DNA from: a virus
Length of the DNA stretch: 49,503 nucleotides
Virus record (IMG/VR): IMGVR_UViG_3300027968_000004
Location: 1 to 49,503 of that record
Reading direction: 5' to 3' (one strand)
The position numbers and the translations under genes were made by a program. The notes below the pieces were generated by a model. It searched no databases. It worked only from the letters and a program-made list of their open reading frames with translations, and was not told the DNA's origin. Below, piece after piece: positions 9,186 through 14,002 of the stretch (positions within the stretch are counted from its first letter, which is position 1; each line of letters opens with the position of its first letter).

Positions 9186-9896
9186 TTATTCGTGCCCGTT
9201 TCTAAAAACAAACAGGCTTCGACGATAAACAACCGAACCGGGCCCATCAGTGACCCGGCCAAAATATTTATTCACTTTCTCTTCGGTGGTGATCCGAGCT
9301 TTAATTAATCTTAGCAGCGGCGTCCGCCACCCCCTAACGCGCTCTTTTATTGGAATATCTCGAATCGGATCGAATTCATAAACACTGAATTCCGGCATAT
9401 AACCGGTAGGAATGTACCACAAATATTCAAAAGTTTTGCCATCAAGCCGAGGTTGCGGCTGCCCATATACACGGTAAACTGCTAAGTCGCCAATAATTCG
9501 TCCATCCGTAATATATAACTCGGATGGCAGCATCTTCTTGAGGCGATAAAGAAATTCAGAGTGGTGTAGATGATTGACCCAGCGGGGACCATCGTCCATA
9601 TAATCAAGCTGGTGCTTCCATCGCTGAGCCTTTGTTCGTTCGTCGTAATAATTCAATTCGGTCAGGCGGGCGATGTGCTCTGAAGTTGAAAGGCGAGGAA
9701 CCATCTCACACTCATAGCACTGATCGCGTACGCCTTCGCGATAAGAAGAGTCGCGGCGAAACTGACCATATGGCTTAATTTTCCCGCAGCTCAGGCACTC
9801 TTTCCAAACGACCTTAGTATTCGTTTGGTCGAGTACTTCTGCTGTAACGGGCGCTCCGCCGTGTCTAAGAATTTCATCAACACCAGGAAAGTGCAT
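9186..9896 (-). CDS. Unknown protein with HNH-associated-type zinc finger
   Basis: 236 residues. Residues ~34-64 have CLSCGKIKPYGQF followed by CYEC, the Cys4 finger often found at the N-terminus of small phage HNH or regulatory proteins. The remainder is rich in Tyr, Arg and Trp with no HNH motif, so nuclease function is not supported. It follows the small structural gene in the same direction with a 59-bp gap. Confidence 0.7.
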   Translation of the reverse strand: MHFPGVDEILRHGGAPVTAEVLDQTNTKVVWKECLSCGKIKPYGQFRRDSSYREGVRDQCYECEMVPRLSTSEHIARLTELNYYDERTKAQRWKHQLDYMDDGPRWVNHLHHSEFLYRLKKMLPSELYITDGRIIGDLAVYRVYGQPQPRLDGKTFEYLWYIPTGYMPEFSVYEFDPIRDIPIKERVRGWRTPLLRLIKARITTEEKVNKYFGRVTDGPGSVVYRRSLFVFRNGHE

Positions 9897-10478: not shown

Positions 10479-11114
10479 TCACGAAACAACAAAAGCTTTG
10501 TCCTCATTATTTATATCTGGCTTAAAAATTGGTCTTGCATCAAGCTTGCCATTCTCAATAAAAATACCAATAATACCGCCGGGTTTTACTAATACTTTTT
10601 CTGGCTGTTCTGGATGGAGCACGAACCCGACTTCTCGTATAATGCTTGAGTGTGCTTCTAATAGAGGAGGGCGACCGGTCGTTATGCCTAATTTAATGGC
10701 GTCTCGAAGGAGAGGACGAACACGGTTACGAAAATTATTCAACGACTCTCCTCCCGGAAAAGGTACATCTGGATTTTCAACGTGTTCCAAAACGATACGC
10801 CCGGTTTCAGGTGTTTTCTTTTTACCGCCCAGATCACCAACATTTAAAGGCGCCAAGGCATCATTATAGACAACATGATACTTTGGCGTTGTTTCTTGAA
10901 TGATTTTGGCTGTATGCCGTGCTCGCTTTTTAGGCGAGCAAAAAATAACCGGATACAGATCATAATCTGTTAAAAAAGCAGCCTGCTGGTGGGCAACATG
11001 GATTCCTGCTTGATCTAAATCAACGTCCAATGGACCGCGAAAGCAACAAGCTTGATTGAGGGTCGTTGTACCGTGGCGTCCAACAAGACAAACAAGTTGT
11101 GAATTAGTAGACAT
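10479..11114 (-). CDS. Histidine phosphatase (phosphoglycerate mutase-like)
   Basis: 211 residues with all expected core residues. These are the RHG triad at residues 13-15, an Arg in SPKKRARHTA, GGES with a conserved Glu in the middle, and a second His in EAHSS. RG...DVDLDQAG is also typical. The family removes phosphate from small molecules or phosphoproteins through a phosphohistidine intermediate. The substrate here is unknown. A full-length enzyme within the head genes is unusual. Possible jobs are nucleotide or sugar-phosphate metabolism, or reversal of host signalling. The gap to the upstream gene is 5 bp, so the two are probably co-translated. Confidence 0.8.
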   Translation of the reverse strand: MSTNSQLVCLVGRHGTTTLNQACCFRGPLDVDLDQAGIHVAHQQAAFLTDYDLYPVIFCSPKKRARHTAKIIQETTPKYHVVYNDALAPLNVGDLGGKKKTPETGRIVLEHVENPDVPFPGGESLNNFRNRVRPLLRDAIKLGITTGRPPLLEAHSSIIREVGFVLHPEQPEKVLVKPGGIIGIFIENGKLDARPIFKPDINNEDKAFVVS

Positions 11115-12059: not shown

Positions 12060-12883
12060 TTACGAGCTGCTGGTCATAGACTGCAGCCGTCGCAGCGTCA
12101 TTACGGAACCGGGACGTAGGGTGTTCGTGTACTTTACGTTATAGCTCACCCAGCCCCCGATCTGCCTTGCCGGATCAGCCACAGACCCCTGAGCAGGAGC
12201 CTCCTGGATCATGAGCCGGTAGTTCTTCTCACCAGTCTTGGGGTTCTTCCCAAGGAAGACAGAGAAGATGGCGTCATCAGCAAACAGATACGTATTGTAA
12301 TACGTATTGCTGTTGATCGTAACCGTCGGCGTAGTCGTGGTTTGCTTGAAACGGGCACCACCAAACACAATCGTTTCCTCGTTGCTAACGGGAGCAAAGA
12401 GTTTATCGACCGTGCTTTCGTTCCGCTTCAGGATATCCGTCAGACCGTTGTTGCTCGTATCATTGAGCACATCATGCACAACGAACGGGTGGATGATTCC
12501 GCCCATATAGCCATCCGGGGTTAGCGGCCGGGCATTGACGCCGGCAAGCTGCTGAATAGCCGTGCGGATGTTGTTGGCCGACAGGAAGCTTCCCGGAGCC
12601 AGAGTGATCGTAACAGAGCTATCGACGCCTTGGGCGCTGTCTGCGGTAATCTGAACCAAGGAGTTCAGAGTTAGAGCCAACCGGTAGTTCAATTCCACCG
12701 ACAGGTTCTGAAGCAACCCGGGGTCGTCAATTGCCACGTCCATTGCCAGGTCGGAGCTGTTGATAAAATCAGCATACTGGCCGATGGTTGCCGTGATTTT
12801 CGTGGATGATTCAGCGATGGGCGAACCCACCGTACCTTCTGCCGCCTGGGTAGTATTGCCAGAGAGCAGAGCATAAGTATAGA
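12060..12883 (-). CDS. Major capsid protein, exon 2 (N4-gp56-like)
   Basis: This frame continues into an upstream stretch with no proper start; the only initiator is a TTG at 12899 inside the intron. The sequence (YTYALLSGNTTQAAEGTVG, then GGIIHPFVVHDVLND, NEETIVFGGARFK) matches the N4-gp56 family of HK97-fold capsid proteins but lacks the family's N-terminus. That missing N-terminus is found at 13840-14002. Splicing T13840 to T12883 gives 987 nt, that is 328 residues, with the junction reading SGNQIQ-F-YTYALL. The scaffold gene lies directly upstream and a terminator downstream, as expected for the most abundant virion protein. The 3' splice position is inferred; G12887 is an in-frame alternative last intron base. 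Confidence 0.8.
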
Positions 12884-13839
12884 CGACGTGTTTAGGCAAC
12901 TAACGTTCCCGTTAGTGCGCGCTCATGATCGCTCATGAGTCCAGACTGTATCTTTGCTCTTTTGTCTTTAGCCGCCTTCATCTGTTGGTAAAAATCTTCT
13001 CTTATTTCGGGCGTTGGTTTATTGTGCCTTACATAATTTAGAAGTATTTTACCTTCGTCTCGTTTAACGATTAAATATGGCAAGAGAGCAAGCAGGTATT
13101 TTTCAATGTCCTGCTTTTTGCTAATATACCAGACAAAAGCGGGCTTGCCTTTTTTATTTTTTAAAGGCGATATTGAGCCGCCAAACTTATTTTTTGCCAA
13201 TTCTAGCAATGGCATAAAAGTATTAGTAATTCCGATCCGAACGTTGTAGGCCGGTCCTCGACTTATTACTAAATAACCCTCGCCATCTAAAATTGCCGCC
13301 AAATATGCTTGTAACGGCTTACCAACAAGAGCACCCGGCGTTTCAGTCGTTACGCAGCTGGATTTCTTCGCTTCTCTTAACTTGACGAAAAGTTCGTCTC
13401 TCTTAACAGGATTTATTTGTCCGTCAAGATTTAAATATTCTAAAAGAATATTTGCTTGTTGACGCTTTTCAATTAAGTATGGCGAAATCGAAGTCAAGAA
13501 AAAACCGACACTTTTTCTACCATATAGTCGCCAATGGTATAGTGGCTTACTTAAATAGCCTCCATTCATGGCTGCCTTTTGGTAATTTATTGTGCCCCCG
13601 AAATGGTTAACAGCCCATTGCATTAGAGCCTTTGATCCATTTGTAAAGCCTACAAACGGCCGATAATTCACATAATTGGATTTAAACGTCTTGAAGATGG
13701 AAAAGCACCCTTCACCATCCATTAGTCCGGCCATGTAAGCTTTGGTTTTTTCTCTCATCCAGTTTGCTCGGTGTTGTCTGTTCTTGTGATAGAACAGAGT
13801 TCCACCGATTTAGTCGGGTTTTAATTCAGCACTATATTT
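12884..13839 (-). ncRNA. Group I intron interrupting the major capsid gene
   Basis: 5' side: exon end ATTCAG-U (13846-13840) pairs with GCUGAAU (13830-13824), which places the obligatory U-G wobble exactly at the exon end (P1). P4-P5 fits the family: CGGUG/CACCG (13807-13803/13773-13769) encloses an 8-bp stem UCUGUUCU/AGAACAGA with GAAC and CAA joining strands, close to the conserved P and Q elements. 3' side: two hairpins with GNRA loops (12922-12939 and 12899-12916) and an AAGAUACAGUC stretch like the S element. Exon 2 CUAUA (12882-12878) can pair with UAUAG in the guide loop (P10), and the last intron base would be G12884. P3, P6 and P7 are not resolved by eye because most of the core overlaps the endonuclease frame. 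Confidence 0.75.
12892..13758 (-). CDS. LAGLIDADG homing endonuclease (intron-encoded)
   Basis: 288 residues with two LAGLIDADG motifs, YMAGLMDGEGCF (residues 8-19) and YLAAILDGEGYL (about residues 152-163). It is therefore a monomeric two-domain enzyme with acidic residues DGEG in each active site. It would cut intron-less capsid alleles and spread the intron. There is no Shine-Dalgarno before the ATG, which fits the weak expression usual for such genes. The frame ends 8 bp before the proposed 3' splice site, so its last ~20 codons also form the intron's 3' hairpins. An intein is excluded by the stop codon straight after exon 1 and by the separate frame. Confidence 0.9.
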   Translation of the reverse strand: MREKTKAYMAGLMDGEGCFSIFKTFKSNYVNYRPFVGFTNGSKALMQWAVNHFGGTINYQKAAMNGGYLSKPLYHWRLYGRKSVGFFLTSISPYLIEKRQQANILLEYLNLDGQINPVKRDELFVKLREAKKSSCVTTETPGALVGKPLQAYLAAILDGEGYLVISRGPAYNVRIGITNTFMPLLELAKNKFGGSISPLKNKKGKPAFVWYISKKQDIEKYLLALLPYLIVKRDEGKILLNYVRHNKPTPEIREDFYQQMKAAKDKRAKIQSGLMSDHERALTGTLVA

Positions 13840-14002
13840 ACTGAATCTGATTACCACTGCGGAGAGGCAGCGGCTTCTGTTTGGTCATCGAAAGGAAGGG
13901 CGTTTGCGCCTTCAAGTTCGGGACCGCCTGGCGCTCGTAGTAGATAGCCACGAGGTTCGGCAAGGCTCCCGATGTGAGAATACTAGCAGGAGAATAGGCC
14001 AT
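13840..14002 (-). CDS. Major capsid protein, exon 1
   Basis: ATG 14002 with an AAGGAGG site 8 bp upstream opens a 54-codon frame, beginning MAYSPASILTSGALPNLVAI and ending KPLPLRSGNQIQ, then TAA inside the intron. The ending is the N-terminal signature of N4-gp56 capsids (LP.RSG followed by hydrophobic residues). The exon ends one base into codon 55 (T13840). The good ribosome-binding site and the position just after the scaffold gene show that this is the real start of the capsid gene. Confidence 0.8.

Follow-up and report, generated by a model that had tools for sequence, protein, structure and literature searches.

A LAGLIDADG endonuclease frame predicted to run through the catalytic core of a group I intron in a phage major capsid gene

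Reading frames carried by introns commonly run into the ribozyme that hosts them, a phenomenon termed core creep (Edgell, Chalamcharla and Belfort 2011, PMC3073962). The single ORF of the T4 td intron, that of I-TevI, occupies one loop and overlaps the core by 20 nt at its end; in a LAGLIDADG case from Synechococcus lividus the ORF lies in P8 and overlaps by 81 nt, and the table of such cases contains zero ORFs with coding domains in two loops (PMC3073962). Introns in capsid genes are likewise on record, from mycobacteriophage LittleE and lactococcal phage Tuc2009; the LittleE element is group I-like, encodes a homing endonuclease, has a U before it and a G at its end, and its splicing was shown by RT-PCR (PMC3706429). 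The MCP gene of a crAss-like zeta-group phage is broken into five parts (PMC7886860). Each of the three ingredients, group I intron, capsid intron and core creep, has precedent.

We analysed a 49.5-kb IMG/VR virus record, taken whole as a window of 49,503 nucleotides and read on the minus strand for the feature described here. Judged from sequence and comparison, the segment from 13839 to 12884 is a group I intron that splits a major capsid gene, probably of the N4-gp56 type, and its LAGLIDADG ORF is predicted to cross the catalytic core, with domain 1 in the loop of P6a and domain 2 in the loop of P8 (Table 1).

Table 1. Predicted features of the interrupted capsid gene, its intron and the endonuclease ORF, in window coordinates
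Feature	Position	Strand	Remarks
Major capsid gene, exon 1	13840..14002	-	codons 1-54 and first base of codon 55; PHROG 1357 profile 22-69
Group I intron, 956 nt, capsid insertion site 55.1	12884..13839	-	empty sites, core structure, covariation, ORF-less relative
P1	13823..13847	-	exon 1 end GATTCAGT with internal guide GCTGAATT (13830-13823); U.G at 5' splice site
P10 partner TATAG	13832..13836	-	5 bp possible with exon 2 CTATA (12882-12878); sequence alone
P3 5' strand CCCGAC	13813..13818	-	partner 13339-13334, one A.C
P4 enclosing P5	13768..13808	-	P4 13808-13803 with 13773-13768; P5 13797-13791 with 13784-13778
P6a 5' strand CTGGAT	13757..13762	-	overlaps ORF ATG; partner ATCCAG 13363-13358
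LAGLIDADG endonuclease ORF, 288 aa, two domains	12892..13758	-	crosses ribozyme core; Pfam LAGLIDADG_1 3.3e-6
P6a loop, coding for LAGLIDADG domain 1	13364..13756	-	MAGLMDGEGCF, residues 9-19; layout common to 16 introns
Core segment P6a 3', P6, P7 5', J7/3, P3', P8 5'	13327..13363	-	also encodes interdomain linker SSCVTTETPGAL
Strands of the core segment		-	P7 5' GACTG 13348-13344; P3' GCCGGG 13339-13334; P8 5' GCTCTT 13332-13327
P8 loop, coding for LAGLIDADG domain 2	12962..13326	-	LAAILDGEGYL, residues 153-163
P8 3', J8/7, P7 3'	12944..12961	-	P8 3' AAGAGC (12961-12956), J8/7 AAAGATA, P7 3' CAGTC (12948-12944); also codes for tail start KIQS
P9 and P9.1 hairpins	12900..12939	-	P9 12939-12922, P9.1 12915-12900; also C-terminal tail coding; from sequence
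Major capsid gene, exon 2 with stop codon	12060..12883	-	PHROG 1357 profile from 70 on

An interrupted capsid gene and its ribozyme

Exon 1 ends in T (GGTAATCAGATTCAGT), the last base of the intron is G and exon 2 starts with TCTATACTTATGC. Read unspliced, codon 55 is an in-frame TAA stop directly after exon 1, which rules out an intein; joined, the exons form 328 codons, and residues 1-328 are uninterrupted in intron-free relatives and align to intact capsids without gaps. The exons match contiguous parts of PHROG 1357 (major head protein), exon 1 covering profile positions 22-69 and exon 2 positions 70-226, and the joined exons score 59.7 bits (E 4.7e-16) as against 18.2 and 25.2 singly. TIGR04387, the 'N4-gp56 family major capsid protein', matches residues 10-196 of the joined product (E 4.8e-13, 49.1 bits, below its curated cut-off of 60). 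The exact empty site is found in contig L017 as GGTAATCAGATTCAG-TTCTATACC. Thus the 956-nt element, its junctions, the restored frame and the capsid host gene, all proposed in the initial annotation, are borne out by comparison with relatives. Placing the 3' splice site at 12887 instead would introduce a V absent from every relative, and the empty sites rule against it. Within the phage collection the nearest capsid is that of Tunturiibacter phage Tunturi_3; at 37.8% identity it gives no more than a hint of the host group. A blastn search with the intron as query found no match among 50,697 phage records.

In this group of uncultivated phages the capsid gene is an insertion hot spot. Among 82 capsid loci, which include near-duplicate contigs and are not independent lineages, 54 hold at least one insertion and 16 hold four or more; about 20 insertion sites are used, and one complete gene (L073, 1059-4682) contains seven introns. 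The view that introns are uncommon in phage capsid genes, when set beside the published cases (PMC3706429, PMC7886860) and their great frequency in this group, needs qualifying. The introns of capsid loci L003 and L039-L084 (e.g. L082:692-4867) are of at least two ribozyme types, recognised by the intron ends AAACAC..G and GTAACA..G, and junctions placed at sites 77.0 and 79.0 are probably mis-registered 73.2. In L003:2-577 a GIY-YIG/NUMOD-like ORF is joined to an apparent portal-protein C-terminus, which suggests an intron in the portal gene too. In the window itself, the minus-strand frame at 9186-9896, near structural genes, has weak endonuclease VII and HNH PHROG matches and is possibly a free-standing endonuclease, and a protein with a histidine phosphatase (branch 1) domain is encoded among the structural genes at 10479-11114 (minus strand).

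The secondary structure begins with the pairing of GAUUCAGU with GCUGAAUU in P1, which leaves a U.G pair at the break, and RF00028 aligns the same P1 in a relative at the same capsid site (L076). Both this pairing and the P4-P5 domain had been noticed earlier from the sequence. P4 is mostly invariant across introns and is found by RNAalifold. P10, also proposed earlier, can form with five base pairs; it is plausible but weak, and its register differs among relatives. P3 contains one A.C mismatch, which recurs in L003, and across 16 introns five of its six pairs show two-sided change. The assignment to group I goes beyond P4-P5 and rests on P3, P6a, P7, P8 and J8/7, elements that for the most part fall within the ORF; the P3/P7 pseudoknot with P4-P6, P8 and J8/7 is present. 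A placement of P3' at AGTCTGG (12947) with P7 near P9 was dropped because AAAGATACAGTC serves as J8/7-P7' and the linker holds perfect partners. By J8/7 motif and by endonuclease, no further ribozyme copies were found within the window.

Rfam returns no match for the window intron at the gathering threshold, and the relaxed matches (RF00028, 12.8 bits, 12922-13147) are in the wrong register and at chance level. The intron escapes the models probably because two long coding loops separate its core strands; a covariance-model match is a detection aid and not a defining feature of a group I ribozyme. The ORF-less intron of L076, 206 nt long, scores 53.7 bits against RF00028 (gathering 50), and the alignment places P3, P4, P6, P7, P3', P8, J8/7, P7' and P9 on the strands that correspond to those of the window intron; several further introns of the same capsid gene are also above the threshold. 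The initial annotation would have given up the intron if a failed group I search had coincided with a lack of capsid homologues across the junction; such homologues do cross it, and ORF-less relatives match RF00028.

A coding frame through the catalytic core

The ORF encodes a predicted LAGLIDADG endonuclease, as noted earlier, and matches Pfam LAGLIDADG_1. The protein has two motifs, and its halves are homologues that align at 31% identity (E 1e-17). AlphaFold, given an input alignment of 16 sequences only, predicts a two-domain LAGLIDADG monomer (pLDDT 83, pTM 0.83), and Foldseek matches it to LAGLIDADG meganucleases including mMsoI, I-SmaMI and I-OnuI (E about 1e-12 to 1e-15). Predicted confidence falls below 50 only at the ribozyme-encoded pieces, residues 134-142 and 269-288, and in the loop 64-68, the C-terminal tail having pLDDT 22-30. 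A scan of genome contigs found distant LAGLIDADG relatives only.

Is the element still intact? A decaying intron, with a non-functional ribozyme or endonuclease and a capsid protein that is broken or made in two pieces, would fit the A.C mismatch in P3, the stop that follows exon 1 and the P5 region of the window intron, in which we found neither a promoter nor a clear ribosome-binding site, nor any other expression signal for the ORF. Against this, the frame is open over 288 codons, the acidic residue is kept in both motifs (DGEG twice), the core is intact, the exons align gap-free to intact capsids, and a second contig (L002) carries the identical intron with zero differences. We consider decay very improbable.

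The frame had been described as independent. This holds with respect to the exons only, since core strands of the ribozyme lie inside it: residues 134-142 are encoded by the strand that holds P7 and P3', whereas J8/7-P7'-P9 and P9.1 encode the last 20 residues of the protein. After capsid relatives were fetched and the junctions of each intron placed, the same split layout was found in 17 introns, 16 of them distinct when one near-copy is left aside, at capsid sites 21/22, 33, 55 and 90; it also occurs at four more loci (L098, L099, L100 and L103).

These introns bear on a simpler reading, namely that this is an ordinary group I intron with a two-domain ORF in one loop, whose C-terminus has crept into the core and whose linker resembles P7 and P3' by chance. 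Core creep is common (PMC3073962), and relatives at sites 73 and 88 do hold both domains in P6a. However, in all 16 split-layout introns the two domains are separated by GACTR, the complement of P3 and the 5' strand of P8, and a search for another P7 5' strand outside the ORF found none. When partner strands of P3, P6a and P8 were permuted among introns, none of 20000 permutations reached the true pairing; P4 and P7 are too constant to inform this test and lend no covariation support. In the 16 excised cores, 93.8% of cells are standard pairs, and in 13 of the 25 pairs both sides change. None of 500 shuffles matched the cell counts or the covariation score, a control inflated by the relatedness of the sequences; this applies less to structures slid by one to three columns, in which 29-39% of cells pair. 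RNAalifold, to which no structure was supplied, predicted P3, P4, P6, P6a and P8, with two-sided changes at 15 of 22 pairs.

The coding sequence bears the same mark. Where at least 13 of the 16 proteins share a residue, codon entropy is zero at V136, T137, T138, T140, K269, I270 and Q271, positions that overlap P7 and J8/7-P7', and at the other 56 conserved positions its minimum is 0.57 and its mean 1.38. The codons GTA ACG ACT and ACG of the core segment are invariant in 13-16 sequences, and AAG ATA CAG at the start of the tail do not vary either. The simplest reading of these frozen codons is selection on the RNA inside the ORF. Given that P3 and P8 covary and that codons are frozen exactly in the stretch between the domains, we attach very little credence to an ordinary intron with a chance resemblance in its linker. 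As in core creep, the ORF overlaps core strands from a peripheral-loop insertion; the overlap is not terminal with the ORF body in one loop, and the core sits between two domains.

Layouts of related introns and their origin

One ribozyme family in the same capsid gene presents four ORF layouts: none (introns of 191-232 nt), one domain in P6a (sites 39, 91, 184 and 187), two domains in P6a (sites 73 and 88) and the split form. In the one-domain layout the frame continues through P7, P3' and P8 and usually beyond. The frame through the core is identical in all four layouts (e.g. ...TTNTP...KIES...), and read from its sequence the ORF-less intron of L076 still has it open. In an unrooted tree of single domains, domain 1 of the split layout is a clade (99/95), the P8 domain is a clade except for a long-branched copy from site 90 of L003, and the two-domain type confined to P6a forms two clades apart from the split form. 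It thus seems that endonucleases with two domains evolved on this ribozyme on two or more occasions, one of them by way of the core. The split layout probably arose once, a single origin that the tree partly supports, and then spread to at least four capsid sites.

Other introns of the set show further variation. At site 233.1 (L003:6118-6678 and L043:4429-5046) a zinc-finger/HNH-like ORF ends in a similar core-encoded tail (TTNTP...KIES). In the 1312-nt intron of L068 at site 88.2, the LAGLIDADG ORF is preceded by an extra 87-aa frame (MATHDIVDGFEPDD...) located in the P5 region. In L059:2061-2089 a sigma-70-like promoter (TTGACA, a spacing of 17, TAGTAT, with TG before it) sits within an enlarged P5 loop, ahead of the endonuclease ORF, and such a promoter also lies in the P5 regions of L079, L054, L060, L083, L044, L039 and L082. 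The pattern occurs in 10 of 32 introns as against 1.6% of shuffled ones, and the window intron is without it.

Two-domain LAGLIDADG proteins can act as maturases. Might the protein then mainly aid the folding of its own intron rather than serve homing? A large ORF that crosses the core may need splicing help, and in a relative (L055:1874-2725) the motif of domain 2 is DGKG and not DGEG, the catalytic acid being lost, so that this copy is possibly a nickase or a maturase. Both motifs of the window protein retain their acidic residue, and related introns occupy several sites while empty sites coexist, as expected of mobile elements. We regard a mainly maturase role as improbable, though less so than decay.

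A proposed mechanism and comparison with known systems

The locus is very probably a mobile group I intron whose monomeric, two-domain LAGLIDADG endonuclease is split over the P6a and P8 loops and whose core is translated. In the transcript, P1 and P3-P9 would fold and guanosine attack would cleave after GAUUCAGU; joining of exon 1 to exon 2 would then give the 328-residue capsid protein. A ribosome passing through P6-P7-J7/3-P3'-P8 would make the interdomain linker, and J8/7-P7'-P9 would yield the tail. The endonuclease would cut intron-free capsid alleles at the empty site, its predicted target, which contains GGTAATCAGATTCAGTTCTATACC, and repair would copy the intron in. As to the order of events, it is likely that reading frames in P6a had already extended across the 3' half of the core in this ribozyme family; the P8 loop may then have acquired another in-frame LAGLIDADG domain, either newly arisen or inserted there, so that a presumed homodimer became a monomer able to recognise an asymmetric site.

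Because translation of the endonuclease would require the ribosome to open P7, P3 and P8, each transcript might yield either endonuclease or spliced capsid message. Such a switch is conceivable, if rather unlikely; were it true, fusion through the core would have turned a single-domain endonuclease into a monomer and would at the same time serve as an inbuilt control on capsid supply.

The locus presents one stretch of nucleic acid under dual constraint, as ribozyme catalytic core and as internal protein coding sequence, and the constraint is visible codon by codon. It points to fusion through a ribozyme as a route from a single-domain, presumably dimeric, LAGLIDADG endonuclease to a monomeric one. 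In the same gene and ribozyme family this route can be compared with another, in which P6a holds both domains, and with the states presumed to have come first, introns with one domain or with no ORF. With its many insertion sites, the capsid gene lends itself to the study of intron homing in a gene that is essential and highly expressed.

A search of the open-licence literature turned up no endonuclease whose coding sequence is divided between two loops, an absence that is weak evidence. Like the crAss-like zeta phages (PMC7886860) and the Jug phages (PMC12363816), this group is uncultivated and dense in self-splicing introns; here there are up to seven introns per capsid gene at about 20 sites, and the passages cited for those phages describe no split endonuclease layout. 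LittleE and Tuc2009 share with the window an intron in a capsid gene, and LittleE also an endonuclease and the U/G ends, but they differ in the endonuclease, which is HNH in LittleE, in having a single intron and in their HK97-like capsid. I-OnuI, I-SmaMI and mMsoI have the same two-domain fold with two LAGLIDADG helices, at 14-20% identity, whereas the linker and tail of the window protein are encoded by ribozyme core strands. Like td and the other core-creep cases, this is a phage group I intron with an endonuclease ORF in a peripheral loop that overlaps P6a and P7 core strands; unlike them, its ORF has two domains in two loops, with the core as internal coding sequence. Known families, the group I intron and the two-domain LAGLIDADG endonuclease, appear here in a layout that seems new.
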